Assembly (NCBI GenBank): GCA_001574975.1 | Contig: KQ965845.1 | Location: forward strand, 62,001-126,000 | Source of the DNA: Gonapodya prolifera JEL478 | Taxonomy: Eukaryota > Monoblepharomycota > Monoblepharidomycetes > Monoblepharidales > Gonapodyaceae | DNA: 64,000 nucleotides | Reading direction: 5' to 3' | Part shown: positions 32,140-38,221 of the stretch, one piece after another | How the letters are laid out: each line of letters begins with the position of its first letter | Position numbering within the stretch: position 1 is the first letter of the stretch | The notes under the pieces: generated by a model | The model's input: the letters and a program-made list of their open reading frames with translations, nothing else | The model's database searches: none | What the model was told of the DNA's origin: nothing | Translations under genes and position numbers: made by a program

Positions 32140-32168
32140 NNNNNNNNNNNNNNNNNNNNNNNNNNNNN
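32140..32168. other. Assembly gap (29 N)
   Basis: A run of N separates the unidentified frame at 31613-32139 from the 3' end of the carbonyl-reductase-like gene. The true distance is unknown. Confidence 1.
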
Positions 32169-32192: not shown

Positions 32193-33616
32193 CTACTCAT
32201 CCGGCAACTCCTCCACAAACGTATTCAAATCCACCCTCTTCTCCATCAACCCCCTGTACGTCAGAGCCCTCGAACTCCACACTTCTTCCGATCTCTTCCT
32301 TCTCCTGTAAAACGCGCCGGGGACGAGTTGGGAGGAGTCCCGGGGTGGTAGGGAGGAGGAGGAGGAAGGGAAGACGGAAGTGTGCAGAATGAGCCACGCG
32401 GGCGTGTCAGCGCCTTGGTCGGGTGAGAGTTGGGTCAGGTGGCGGGGTCCGTACTTGGCCGTCTGCAAATTATCGTCGAGTGCATGAGTTCGGTCAGTCG
32501 CTTCAGCCTCGGTCAGCGCCGAGCAGCGCCAGGCCTTGATGTCGCTCCGCGACGGCACCATGGTCAGCACTGTCGCACCTAGGCCTTGGGTTCGCTCCGC
32601 GAGGATCATTCCGCTCCGCGGTGTATTCGCCTCCGGCGGACGCGTCGCATCGCTCGACAGCCTCTGTCAGCGCTATCGCGCTTAGGCCTCGGTGTCCTCC
32701 CTCCGCTCGCGTTGCTCGCTCCTGTCGGACCGTCTCTTGAACCCACCTGGTCTGTATATACCGCCCCCGGACAACACGCCACCACAACCACCCTCTCCCT
32801 CTCGGGTCTCTTGTCCTCCTCCCTCGCAAGCGCCCTCGCCAAGCAATGCACGCCCATCTTGGCCGTACAGTACACGTGGCGGTAGTAACCCTCCTTCTCT
32901 GGCCCGCCTGCGTCCTCGGGGTCGGTCTCACGGGCGAGAAGCTCCACCCACCGGTGCATCATGGTGTCGATATCGTCGGGTCCCGTTTCCTCCGACAAGA
33001 ACTTTTCCCGCAACGTGGGTGAGACCATTGAGAGCCGCCCAATCATTGACCCGATAAACACCACCCTGGCCCCCTGGCGTAAGTGGGGCCAGAGCGTGGC
33101 CGCGACGTCCCGTACGCCCCAGTAGTTTGTGCCCATGACCTCTGCGACGACGTGCGGGCGGAGATCTGCGTCCGGGTAGGATACGCCCGCGTTGCACACG
33201 AGCGCGTCGATGCAAAGCTGGCCGTGTTGCGAGACGAGGAAGGTGGCGAGGGAGTTGATTTGGGAGAGGTCGGTGACGTCCAGGACGTGATGTCGCACGT
33301 CCACGGACTCGACGCCTGCGGTTTGGACTTCGGAGCGGATCTCGTCGGCGGCTGCTTGGCATCGCTCGGCGCTTCGACCGGTGAGGTAGACGACCAGAGG
33401 GCGGGGTGGGGAGTTGAATGTGGAGGATGGGTATTGGAGGGCGAGCAGGCGGACGATTGAGAGGCCAATTCCCTTGTTGCTGAGTGTGTGGTGAGATAGT
33501 TGAGGTGGGTGGATGCGTTGAGTGAGGTGAAGACGACGAGCGAAGACAAGAAGAAACACGCACGCGCCCGTCACGACAGCAACACGCGCACTCCCGTCTT
33601 TTGTGTCCGCAGTCAT
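32193..33616 (-). CDS. Carbonyl-reductase-like short-chain dehydrogenase
   Basis: Three exons (33564-33616, 32747-33479, 32193-32462) join in phase to 351 residues. The N-terminus reads VAVVTGANKGIGLSIVRLLA, with the TGxxxGIG NADPH loop completed across intron 1 as in CBR1-type enzymes (GANKGIG). LTGRS follows, then HHVLDVTD, ALVCNAGVS (NAG motif), VVFIGSMIGRLS (catalytic Ser) and HVYCTAKMGVHCL (YxxxK), then CCPGAVYTD. The C-terminal exon adds 89 residues, ending RVDLNTFVEELPDE, longer than human CBR1. It would reduce carbonyls of quinones or aldehydes in the cytosol. Intron 2 (284 bp) is long for this genome and is filled by the GC-rich modular repeat described separately. The gene looks intact. 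Confidence 0.88.
32463..32746 (+). repeat. Modular GC-rich intron repeat, copy 1
   Basis: Fills intron 2 of the carbonyl-reductase-like gene. It contains the module CCGCTCCGCGG + ATTCGCCTCCGGCGGA (32611-32640) and the module GACAGCCTCTGTCAGCGC + CTTAGGCCTCGG (32656-32692). Diverged repeats of both occur earlier in the intron (TCAGCGCC...AGGCCTTG at about 32513-32545 and 32563-32590). Short palindromes such as TCCGCCGGA can fold into stems. Copies 2 and 3 are at 36661-37022 and 37418-37841. Confidence 0.8.
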
Positions 33617-34215
33617 CGCGTGTCTGTTTCCGCAGTGCGAGTCGAATGACCGGATTTTGTATGAGTCGTGAGGTTGCTGCGGTCACTGCTCACTCGCCAC
33701 CACCGAAGTCCGCGGATGTGATTCCGTGGCGGGGCAGAAAGTGAATGATGCGAAAATACAGCCACGGTACTCTGGAGAAACGTTTTTGACGGGCGTGGCC
33801 TTTCCTTTTCTGGGGAAATTAAATTGCGCTCATTGTCAAATGTCAACCGTTGACCCTTTATGAGGTTGCTTGACGTCTAAAACGGAAGGCTTTACTATGC
33901 CACCAGTAAATTCACCAGGGTTTTACCTTGCTTAACTGTTTTGTTCCAAGATTGAACCAACATCTATGAGTGGCGGTGACAGTTTGAAAAGAACGTGTGC
34001 AGTTCCACTCCACATGTGAATGATCTTACAAGCTTTTTAATGCTTTGAATGTATTATTCCAGGGTCTCAGGAATCTAATGACATTTGACTGACAGTGGAG
34101 TTCACAGCCTCACAAAAAATTCCAGAGCACTGGGCTTTTCCATGACCTATTGTATTCTATGAATATGTGACATAACATTGCTTGTTCAGGAAGTACATTG
34201 GTGTGATACTCCTGC

Positions 34216-34284
34216 ACCATGACATCAAACTAGTTTTGGTTTCTCTGGGCAACACCATTTGATGATGTCTGCCTGTGACACACA
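34216..34284 (+). repeat. Left inverted arm
   Basis: Contains AGTTTTGGTTTCTCTGGGC followed by AACACCATTTGATG and TCTGCCTGTGACACA. The reverse complement of 35083-35152 matches at roughly 80 percent over about 65 bases. Together the two arms flank about 800 bp, as in a foldback/MITE-like element or two oppositely inserted copies of one repeat. Confidence 0.7.
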
Positions 34285-35082
34285 AGTGGGTTGTGTTGCA
34301 AGCTCAGAGCAGGGTTGCTGTGCCTTCTTATCACCAAGTGGCTTTAGCCTCTTGCAGAAGCAAGTGTAACTCAGTGATTAGAGAACTTTTTGTCAACACT
34401 GATCTCCACACAAGTGGCAGCAACAGCTGTAATGATTTCACAATCCTCTTTTTTATGCTGTCTCATCATTGCATACAGTAATACTCCCTGAAGCTTTCTT
34501 TTTTGGTCTCCTTTGAGTCCATGTTACATGCTGTGTGCACTCCTTGTGAATGTAATTTTGTTTTGCCTCCCAATCCAACCACCAAAAAAAGGATGCCACT
34601 CATGCAAGAGCTGTGAAGTTGCATGACACAGTCCCATGAGGGATCAGCTAACAATTGTACTTTATCTGTGATGGTAGTTGAATAGTGAAACATGATGCTG
34701 TGTTATCTGGTGCAGAAGGCCTTATTAACAATCACACAATGCCAGATCTCTGCAGTGTTTCAAACTCTAGCAAGGTGCACAAAATATAGCATACATAAGG
34801 AGTGCACACATCACTGGACATCATGGACTCAAAGCAGATCAAAAAAGAAAGATTGAGGGACAATCACAGTAATTGTTTTTGAACTGAAGCCAACATAGAA
34901 TTGAAAATTCACTGCAACTGTTGTGGCCACTTATGAGAAGTTCAGGTTTTGACAAAATGTACTCTCATTGAGCAGCTCTGTGCATGAGCAAACATTATTT
35001 TGTATACTGAATTGGTGGACTATGTCTCTTGGAGTCTTGGTGATATAAGTTGTTGCAACTCAACTTTTCAGCTCACAAGGAT

Positions 35083-35152
35083 CCTGTGTCTCAGGCAGAA
35101 GCCATCAATTGGTGTTGCCTAGAGATACCAAAACTAATTTTATGTCTGTGAT
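35083..35152 (-). repeat. Right inverted arm
   Basis: Its reverse complement reads AGTTTTGGTATCTCTAGGC then AACACCAATTGATG and TCTGCCTGAGACACA, mirroring 34216-34284. No target-site duplication outside the arms could be recognised by eye. Confidence 0.7.
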
Positions 35153-36098
35153 GGTTTGGTGACTGTCATGTCAAGATAATTCTCAATCTAGCACAGCTAT
35201 GAAAGAAATTCACAGAATACAAATACCTATGCCTGAAAACGGATTGTGCTCTAGAGTCTGGTATGAGGGTGTGAGCTCTGCAGTCACATTATGTATCCCC
35301 ACCAAGTCCTGAGATCCTGGGAAAATACATATGAACCATTGAAGACATCATAAAGGCACCAAATGAAATTCCTATTCTTCCCCTCTGGTCTCTGCCACTT
35401 CTTGTAAAACTTTTGACACCACTTTGAGATGTGAGGTTCTATGGTTGTCAAAAACTATTTTATGAATGATGCTGAAGTCAGAAAACGTTGAGCAAGGCCC
35501 TACAATTGTTTTAATGCTCTCGCAAACATACACTTCTCTCACTGGGTGGTGCAAACACAATTTCATGTTGCAAGGCAATCAGTAGGGTTGTTCCTTTCTT
35601 GACATCACCTTCTGAAACAATTGAACAACGCAGCAAACCAGTAAAAGGGTTCAAATATCATGCAATACGGCACTATTCAATATAAGTCTCACTATTGCAG
35701 GAAAAAACCACGCAATCCATCAAATGAATCATGTCTTGTTTGTGATCAGCTCAAAACCTGCCACTTGTCACCCAAGACCGAAAAGTTAGTTAAAACAATT
35801 GAGTGAGCATGACACCCTGGCAAATTGCCACTTGTGGAGCAAAGCCCTCCATTTCAGCCATCCAGCAACCTTGTGGTTTGTTGGTTATTGTCTTTGACAT
35901 GGAGCACCATTTCCGCAAAGTGGAGCCAAGGGGCACACCTGTCACAAAACAGAGAGCAATTTCTGACGTCAGAAGTATGTGCGATCATTGAACTTCATGA
36001 AGTATGGCATGCGCCCCGCCGAACTGGCGGTATTGTAATCGTATTGGTCAAAAGAATGCCTAATATGCACATTCCACAACCTCTCTAAACATACGTAC

Positions 36099-38221
36099 TC
36101 ATCCGAACCACCCCATTCTGTCACCCAACCCAATAAAAAAACAAAAGTCCGACCCCCCTTCCCGCACCCCTTGCAATTTCGGGGCGTTTGTCCCGCCCCT
36201 ACTCCTCCTTCGACACCCCCCCCCCCCATTCGCATTCCCATTCGCCACGCCCTTCCCCTTCACGCCTTCAATCGCCTTACCGTCCTTCGTGAACCGCCTG
36301 GCGATGGACGACGTCATCTTGTACAGCCAAAAGTATTGCAGGAGCATGAGGATCTTGTTGGCAACGAAGATTGTGATGGTCAGGGCTGGGGGGAGTTCGG
36401 CGTAGCGGGTGTAGAGGAGTTCTGTAGGTTCGGCACGGGGTGCAGGGGGGGTGGGGCAGGTTAGTGACCACCGTACCTCAAAGGGGGCAAGAAAAGAAAG
36501 AAAGGACCAACGCACGATCAAGTCTCATGGTAATATACGTCCCCGCCACGACACGCGCGAAAAAGAAGGTGGGAAGCAGGATGGCGGCGTTGAATTTTTG
36601 CAGCGTCGAGCCGGCGTGCCCGAATTTGTCGAGGACGTAGTTGTTGTTGAGGAAGATCGTCTACGGTGTCGAGTGTGAAAGGGGTAGGCGGTTCGTGCAG
36701 TGGTAAAACAGCTCATTCGAACCGATATTTGAGAGAAATCGGCACCCCACCCCGCTCATGGGATGACTGATCCGCTTCACGAAGAATTAGCCTCCGCTGG
36801 GATACGCGGTCCCGTCCTTGATACACGTTCCGCGCAAGATTGCTCGCCTACGGCGGTTGTCTCGCTTCGCTCGACAGCCTCGGCCAGCGCTTCGCACTTA
36901 GGCCTCAATAACGCTCTGCAATGGGAGTGGTCCGCTCCGCGGGGAATTCGCCTCCGGCGTACGCCTCCGCCAGCGCTTCGCGCTTCCACCTCGGTCTCCT
37001 CGCTCCACTCGCACCCACTCACCGAACTCTCCCAAGCAAGCACCCACGGCACAAACGGCAACAAAAACGGTCTCATCCCCGCCGTGAAAATGAGCAGGCA
37101 TAGCGTCGCGTGTGCAGTGAAGCCTGGGCCGAACGTGCGGTAGTTGGGGATCGTGACCACGGAGTCCCAGAGGAAGTAGCTGGTGGGGGGGGGGGGGGTG
37201 GAAGGTTGGTGGGGTGAGTGGTGGAGGAACGAGGAAGGGGAGAAGGGTGAGAAGTAGAAGAGAGAAGTGAGAACAGAACACGAAAAGAAGACGACCAACA
37301 AGAACGCACCCAACAGCGAGTGCGCACGCCGTCCCTGCCCTGGGGGAGTACCCGTACAGCCCGTCCTTTTGAAGCTGGGCGTCCCAGAAGAGCGGAATGC
37401 CGTAGGGAACGATAAAGCTGCGAGGGAATGGGAAAAGGAGAGGGAAGGGTATTGGAGTTAACGAGAGAGGAGTGAACGGGGAGAGAATGAGAGGGTATTC
37501 AAACTACAATAAAGAACCGCTCCCATCTCCCCCTTGTGAGAAATCCGCTCCACAATGAATTCGCCTCCGGCGGATGAATAAATACGCACCGCGTAGGACA
37601 GTCGCCTCGGTCGTTGCTGTCGCGCTCAGGCCTCGAGTGATTCGCTCAGAGAGAGTATGCCGCTCCGTGTTGAAGTCGCCTCCAGCGGAGAATTACGCTC
37701 CACGTAGTATCATTCCCTTCCGTCGGACAACCTCGGTCAGCGCCTAGCGGTGGTTAGACCTCGGTTCTCACTGCGCTCCTGCGCTCCACTCAAAACTGCG
37801 CTTTCGCTCCGTCGTTCGAAATGCCCCGCAAGATGACGCACATAGAAAACACCTGACTGGAAAACCTCGTCATCCAATCCACCTTCTGTCTCTTCTCTAG
37901 TCTATCGTACACCTTCTCGACATTCCACCTGCCCAGAAACCTCTCCTGCCTGGACACCCACGGCCCGACTTCCCAGTACAGGACCGAGCAGACTGCAAAG
38001 GATGCCCCGACTGCGCCCCAGTGCGCGGGGAGTGCGCGGAGAGTGAGGGATTCGGGGATGAGCGACGTCAGCGGGCGGAGAAGGGCGAGCAGCGAGTCAG
38101 TCGTGGACTGGAACGGGGTCAGCAAGGAGGTCAGGAAGTCTGGCGGCGAGGTGGAGAGGAGAGAGGAGTCGAGCGGCATCGCGTTTGTGGAGGTGGGAGA
38201 TTGGCGGGTGGGGAGGGCCAA
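36099..38221 (-). CDS. TLC-domain (TRAM-LAG1-CLN8) multi-pass membrane protein
   Basis: Five exons (37842-38221, 37310-37417, 37023-37179, 36516-36660, 36099-36421) join in consistent phases to 370 residues. Exon 1 carries an N-terminal hydrophobic stretch (GAVGASFAVCSVLYWEVGPW) and the cytosolic EKVYDRLEKRQKVDW. Later exons read YFLWDSVVTIPNYRTFGPGF, HATLCLLIFTAGMRPFLLPF, TIFLNNNYVLDKFG, FNAAILLPTFFFARVVAGTY and ALTITIFVANKILMLLQYFW. The order of a 'WDxxxxxxxY' loop, an 'ST.FLN' helix and a final 'LNxxW'-type helix is that of TMEM56/TLCD-like TLC proteins, thought to act in ER or plasma-membrane lipid handling. A Gly-rich tail follows. Introns 1 (424 bp) and 3 (362 bp) hold the GC-rich modular repeat, whereas introns 2 and 4 are about 130 and 94 bp. 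Confidence 0.85.
36661..37022 (+). repeat. Modular GC-rich intron repeat, copy 2
   Basis: Fills most of intron 3 of the TLC gene. Contains GACAGCCTCGGCCAGCGC (36873-36890) with CTTAGGCCTC (36897-36906), then TCCGCTCCGCGG (36931-36942) with GAATTCGCCTCCGGCG (36944-36959), and another CCAGCGCTTCGCGCTT unit near 36970. The orientation relative to the host gene is the same as in copy 1. Confidence 0.8.
37418..37841 (+). repeat. Modular GC-rich intron repeat, copy 3
   Basis: Occupies intron 1 of the TLC gene. Contains GAATTCGCCTCCGGCGGA (37557-37574), a diverged second unit (GTCGCCTCCAGCGGAGAAT, about 37673-37692), GACAACCTCGGTCAGCGC (37726-37743) and TTAGACCTCGG (37754-37764). It is more diverged than copies 1 and 2 and has the same orientation. 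Confidence 0.75.

Follow-up and report, generated by a model that had tools for sequence, protein, structure and literature searches.

Does the GC-rich repeat that recurs in three long introns of the fungus Gonapodya prolifera JEL478 create introns, or does it settle in introns that already exist? The introns lie on the minus strand of a 64,000 nt stretch of contig KQ965845.1 (positions 62,001 to 126,000 of the forward strand), hereafter the window, whose numbering is used below. One of them (32463..32746; donor CCAG/GTGGGT, acceptor TTTGCAG) interrupts a carbonyl-reductase-like SDR gene and holds array 1 (32504..32697). The other two are the first (37418..37841) and third (36661..37022) predicted introns of a TLC-domain gene and hold array 3 (37536..37767) and array 2 (36766..37003), respectively; the TLC domain (PF03798) spans the junction of the third intron. 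An earlier reading of the letters, here called the sequence-only reading, had described these as unusually long introns sharing modules in one orientation and had proposed that an introner-like element produced them. We conclude that the repeat probably belongs to a dispersed, non-coding family that inhabits pre-existing spliceosomal introns of a fungus, and we are confident that it is structured, occurs only in gene sense and enters existing introns.

Introns were predicted with a splice-aware gene finder trained on sampled DNA (donor near GTGAGT, acceptor CAG), and array bases were scored neutrally during classification so that flanks and splice signals decide. Blind to the coordinates proposed earlier, the finder returned the three introns at exactly 284, 362 and 424 bp. 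All are among the seven longest (at least 284 bp) of the 59 introns predicted in the window, where the median is 88 bp; four array-free introns are equally long (at least 284 bp). All nine module matches fall on one strand and within the three introns, and because all three belong to minus-strand genes, the repeat reads in gene sense in each. With up to two mismatches, TCGCCTCCGGCGGA occurs five times in the window against 0.73 expected, a count reached in none of 100 shuffles, and CAGCCTCGGTCAGCGC, with up to three mismatches, occurs four times against 0.59 expected (reached in 1 of 100 shuffles). The earlier remark that no copy lies outside introns held for the window as a whole, where a profile of the unit matched only the three introns (7 matches at E ≤ 1). 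Array 1 is defined by profile matches with E-values of 8.6e-11 and 8.7e-17, and arrays 2 and 3 by the profile together with the gene finder.

The family extends through the genome searched (G000, 47.56 Mb in 207 contigs), a fungal one with 72 Fungal_trans matches. A search with the SDR region, in which 40 of 302 candidate places were scored, listed non-self matches that all fell at query positions 335-580, a segment covering the array with its head, the sequence up to the donor and at most 3 exon bases. A 13-mer from the unit has 441 exact copies in the genome, against 4 for the reversed word used as a control. It is contained in 21 of 36 arrays that were not picked by it, giving a very rough extrapolation to about 670 arrays. 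Over 76 sequences, the unit profile produced 206 matches at E ≤ 1 (31 seed stretches included) and none on reversed sequences. Fifteen tiles (90 kb) contained no array at E < 0.01, with one end match at E 0.019, and genomic context was therefore assessed on loci chosen by similarity (L001-L030) or taken as listed 13-mer places regardless of context (L031-L060 and L195-L202). Two or three distinct arrays are present in 16 of 84 sequences, e.g. the window, L025, L041 and L052. A search of viral contigs with two repeat patterns found no match, and a wider contig scan with an over-short pattern, which gave at least 119 stretches (the 80 listed being bacterial), was taken as chance and dropped.

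The confinement to introns proposed from the window was upheld at these loci as a near-confinement, and so was the orientation bias. Of the 77 distinct arrays, complete predicted introns hold 65 and introns cut by the locus end another two, and all 67 run in gene sense; containment is partial for L040 (67% of the array in the intron) and L036:2711-2775 (97%). Six more arrays were assigned by inspection, each with a sense donor and upstream coding sequence (L029, L036:1393-1540, L059, L197, L198 and L201:526-802), and four are undecided, one cut by the locus edge (L033:16-146) and three lacking a convincing intron (L023, L027 and L054:272-385). The result is similar at the listed 13-mer loci, where 36 of the 38 arrays lie in sense introns (the finder placed 31 of them and inspection the other 5). 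Spliced flank translations contain no stop codon (0 of 65), and in 20 of them analyzed with Pfam a domain clearly spans the junction in 16 cases, is marginal in two and does not span it in two (EF-hand of L042, EF_TS of L006). The marginal cases are zf-met of L060 and the window SDR gene, where adh_short reaches residue 64 of the spliced flank and the junction is at residue 60. Introns make up 6.8% of the sampled DNA (window plus 15 tiles, 154 kb), exons 26% and intergenic sequence 67%, the intron share coming from a small sample and a finder that probably undercalls introns. The predicted density is 2.26 introns per coding kb, and the accessible part of a published account gives 4.5 per coding kb for G. 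prolifera (PMC8476143). Additional arrays in L208, L209 and L210, outside the 77, lie by eye in sense introns of recognizable genes.

Comparison with paralogues went against the proposal that the element generates introns. At five sites in two gene families, an array carried by one gene corresponds in each of two paralogues to an array-free intron of 58-116 bp at the same codon and phase (10 introns). In the MFS gene L041 the array introns measure 224 and 630 bp. The corresponding introns of the paralogues L203 and L204 are array-free, with lengths of 64 and 77 bp for the first site and 64 and 58 bp for the second; all are at the same phase-0 positions (the longest exon matches to L041 are 63% and 65%, respectively). 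The situation is reversed at a third site of this family, where the array is in L203 (220 bp, profile E 9.3e-16) and the introns of L041 (93 bp) and L204 (101 bp) are without one. For the SDR gene L052, whose array introns are 330 and 183 bp long, the paralogues L205 and L206 have array-free introns at these positions (67 and 67 bp; 105 and 116 bp). A sixth comparison extends to the donor side only: the array gene L022 (intron of 610 bp) shares the donor codon and phase with its closest paralogue, L211, in which no module is visible in the 80 nt past the donor. With array-free introns present at matching codons and phases, the element enters introns that were already there at the tested sites. 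This comparison left out a third MFS paralogue (C70:256738-257634) and most SDR paralogues, and for the window SDR gene no paralogue was near enough for comparison.

The element has a recurrent order and variable ends. In sense, the donor is followed by a short, often G-rich spacer, the head modules M0, M1, M2 and M3, and then an 84 nt unit repeated at about 80-nt spacing. Any of the head modules can be absent, and in 60 of 64 cases they lie upstream of the first unit A; their order is based on few cases, with exceptions in which M0a follows M3 (twice) and M1b follows M3 (once). In array 1, M3 is found on the donor side at 32695..32729 (minus strand), 17 nt past the donor. A short motif, M4, occurs both upstream and downstream of the unit. 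The distance from donor to element has a median of 25 nt (5-80) and that from element to acceptor a median of 96 nt (n = 65 for both). Element ends are variable and fuzzy, and no fixed end was found. No target-site duplication was found at the splice junctions, where the longest shared word averaged 3.40 against 3.35 ± 0.11, or around the element itself (3.89 against 3.78 ± 0.12). A 19-nt donor-side hairpin of L011:1384-1603 is present as its exact reverse complement in L052:1855-2037, as if flipped.

The short palindromes that had been thought able to form stems proved to be a chain of mini-hairpins whose stems carry compensatory changes. Each unit consists of hairpins A (AGCGC-GAA/GATA-GCGCT), B (CGCC-GGA-GGCG), C (CCGC-GAA/GGA-GCGG) and D (TCGC-GGA-GCGA). 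In the window, B and C of repeat family D1 lie on the minus strand at 32610..32646, 36931..36967, 37544..37580 and 37659..37695. Across 70 arrays there are 193 perfect 4-bp hairpins with a 3-nt loop, against 65.8 ± 8.9 in dinucleotide shuffles, and 127 of the 193 have GNA loops on the sense strand; hairpins with 4-8 nt loops are near or below expectation, the biggest excess being 82 against 69.9 ± 8.1. Over 13,835 bp of arrays, GCGNAGC has 183 sense occurrences and no antisense one (GCGAAGC 81, GCGGAGC 86 in sense), compared with a background of 0.23 per strand-kb; the strand contrast is partly built in, as the profile used to find the arrays was itself oriented. Paired cells with both sides changed number 41 against 19.9 ± 4.1 (1000 shuffles, maximum 33). 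On a separate alignment of 36 units, all five pair measures lie above every one of 500 shuffles and above alignments shifted by 1-3 columns. These units were hand-picked from 68 selected and are mostly full length; shared ancestry among units can inflate this kind of test. In stem columns, C>T changes, which leave G-U, are more frequent (0.087) than G>A changes, which leave A-C (0.048), and the corresponding values in unpaired columns are 0.079 and 0.066; the stem/unpaired ratio of ratios is 1.54 (locus bootstrap 1.16-2.02). G-U is thus tolerated above A-C, which points to a structure on the sense strand, as RNA or single-stranded DNA, and the hairpins have been maintained by compensatory change. 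Rfam gave no match at E ≤ 1 for window positions 32400-37900, and a known RNA family was rejected for that stretch.

The units of one array are not each other's closest relatives. Mean unit distance is 0.2526 within arrays and 0.2517 between them, and the nearest neighbor of a unit lies in its own array in only 3 of 105 cases (shuffled mean 1.25, maximum 5); as own-array units are no closer than foreign ones, the arrays did not arise by local tandem duplication. Matches longer than one unit connect arrays of different genes, such as L007 and L008 (84% over 200 nt), L007 and L010 (87% over 158 nt), and window array 1 and L057 (86% over 152 nt), which gives the arrays the look of fragments of a composite element scattered through the genome. 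Units of the same index resemble each other more than in any of 200 permutations, because first units differ less among themselves (0.192) than do second (0.273) and third ones (0.303). Own-index units are not the nearest ones for second and third units, and no conclusion on unit order is drawn. Stem divergence from the consensus also rises with distance from the donor, from 0.105 in the donor-side unit to 0.146 in the second, 0.155 in the third and 0.188 in later ones. As a paired test this gradient is weak (32 of 51 arrays), and polar growth with the youngest unit on the donor side is not claimed, since the trend is weak outside the 13-mer columns and found mainly in stems.

The TLC-domain gene has a paralogue at locus L002 that also carries arrays, and the arrays are therefore older than that duplication. 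The intron at 36661-37022 is 89% identical to L002:1486-1849 in a nearly ungapped alignment, whereas fourfold sites of the two genes differ by 28% (45 of 161), which may reflect conversion or constraint. The other array intron (37418-37841) can be aligned with its paralogous counterpart only with many gaps; with one of the two conserved and the other gapped, conservation is not taken as a property of the family. An AT-rich stretch at 34000-35500 contains a fold-back element with nested inverted arms of 62, 50, 31 and 23 nt. Its only other matches found in the genome are beside the TLC paralogue on contig C41, and it seems to be part of a duplicated block. A run of 29 N is present at 32140-32168, downstream of the SDR gene.

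How such a family came to be distributed can be explained in several ways. An introner, a transposon-like element that makes introns by inserting into exons and brings splice sites with it, would account for many intronic copies in sense and close to the donor. It would also fit the donors themselves: GTGAGT begins 40 of 65 array introns against 78 of 253 ordinary ones (11 of 34 ordinary introns of at least 200 nt), and starts of the form GTGAGTCGA are found in 6 of 65 against 1 of 253. These strong donors may be a condition for tolerance or a trace of insertion, or finder bias may account for part of the excess. Some array introns also seem to be missing from distant paralogues, and introns may have been gained or lost on that longer scale. 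This explanation is nevertheless very unlikely, being contradicted at five sites by the array-free paralogue introns, with the sixth agreeing on the donor side, and by a repeat that ends before both splice sites and shows no duplication. Less probable still, and close to dismissible, is local minisatellite expansion within introns. The roughly 80-nt spacing of the units would suit it, and tandem expansion was rejected because within-array units are no closer than between-array units and because Tandem Repeats Finder reported none of the three window arrays; head modules that precede the unit across genes are equally at odds with it.

Two further explanations leave the introns in place. A DNA transposon or SINE-like element might insert anywhere and in either direction, with selection sparing only the sense copies in introns. 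Dispersal from a common pool agrees with this, and reversed copies would harm their introns, given that an acceptor-like site (score > 4) is present in 40 of 70 arrays read in antisense and in 10 of 70 read in sense. The near absence of arrays from the intergenic 67% of the sample (at most 4 of 77) is not explained, however, and a target duplication was not found, which makes such an element an improbable source. Selection contributes to the orientation, and selection alone is insufficient for the scarcity outside genes. It is also rather unlikely that the array is useful to the host, for example by giving long introns a fold or recruiting a protein close to the 5' splice site, with selection preserving it and conversion between introns spreading it. 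Compensatory stems, sense-strand tolerance of G-U, the TLC intron that has stayed 89% identical despite 28% fourfold divergence, and donor-side stems nearest the consensus all speak for a function, while paralogues manage without arrays, the second TLC array intron is riddled with gaps, the positional gradient is weak and the global fold is not unusual.

For the preferred reading, an inhabitant of existing introns, copying through intron RNA was proposed because the arrays are sense-only, mostly in introns, variable at their ends, free of any duplication found and drawn from a common source pool. This RNA-copied route is our leading guess at the mode of spread, and a tentative one. New copies apparently draw on a pool of array sequence shared across the family and not on the neighboring unit. 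On the RNA route, array-bearing introns would yield sense RNA that is copied back, and the copy would be patched into another intron in the course of transcription or repair. Splicing would remove the copies from the transcript and so let them persist, and antisense ones would be purged, partly because the antisense strand bears acceptor-like sites. In its fullest form, which we regard as possible and somewhat doubtful, the array would be a selfish element built of RNA hairpins, with intron RNA, spliced or nascent, as the template for new copies in the 5' part of introns that already exist. Every copy would be in sense, and introns would gain length without any being made or destroyed.

Several points weigh against this account. 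The RNA-copied route, by a putative reverse transcriptase, is our inference, and the acceptor-site argument leaves the missing intergenic copies unexplained; no duplication or fixed end was found. Whole-array folding energies are ordinary for RNA (mean z -0.09 in 32 arrays, compared with -0.39 in antisense and -0.27 for ordinary introns) and for DNA (z -0.16, 19 arrays), and an exceptional overall fold was rejected accordingly, the standout structure being limited to local triloop hairpins. Introns were called by our own finder without transcripts; it scored L197 as an exon on the opposite strand, which was overruled by hand, and the arrays of L023, L027 and L054 may lie outside introns. In the paralogue comparison, boundaries were placed manually, guided by the reading frame and GT...AG, except for two L203 introns called by the finder, which called no complete intron in the short pieces L204-L206, and array gain is distinguished from loss by parsimony alone. 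A distant paralogue of L052 (C70:190627-191121) matches at 32% unbroken through both array junctions, and distant matches of L022 on contigs C10, C138 and C59 are likewise unbroken through the array junctions, as they are through ordinary junctions.

Miniature inverted-repeat transposable elements (MITEs) and short interspersed nuclear elements (SINEs) are found in introns as short, non-coding, dispersed sequences of many copies that have diverged from a common pool. The array repeat shares all of these features and differs in its sense orientation, its scarcity outside introns and the absence of target duplications among the copies searched. The mitochondrial double-hairpin elements of zoosporic fungi are GC-rich hairpin modules thought to be mobile; they resemble the array repeat in their hairpin modules, but the latter resides in nuclear introns. 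DNA mini-hairpins of the GCGAAGC type, with a GNA loop, are stable, and the arrays contain GCGAAGC and GCGGAGC in sense. The motif is known as a structural one (PMC4686876) and is not known as a repeat family. Literature searches found no description of such a repeat, which does not by itself establish that it is undescribed.

Introners, in the available portion of a large survey, are many related intron sequences spread genome-wide, genic and on the coding strand (PMC9860276), and fungal ones are reported, there and in an account of fungal introner-like elements and stwintrons, to have predicted stable secondary structures and no target duplications (PMC9860276, PMC8469720). The array repeat is like them in placing related sequences in many introns on the coding strand, in its enrichment in genes and in sequence shared by introns of different genes (65 array introns in complete gene models). 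Similarity does not run up to the two splice sites, which lie a median of 25 and 96 nt away, and whereas introners, as characterized in those portions, are introns made in exons, the array repeat is embedded in introns that are present in paralogues too, and it ends before the splice sites. As far as can be told from the sites compared, the family has some introner features and fails the defining one. The large survey, in the same available portion, accepts introns only if they are similar close to both ends and discards insertions in the interior, and the fungal group it names is Pezizomycotina (PMC9860276); by our reading of that portion, such filtering of interior repeats would exclude the array family.

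The published introner survey could therefore miss a family that is restricted to introns and to a single strand. If the repeat does move via intron RNA, spreading among introns would be separable from creating introns, two processes that are usually tied together, and if insertions indeed number in the hundreds, they would provide material for studying why a repeat is tolerated only in sense within introns.

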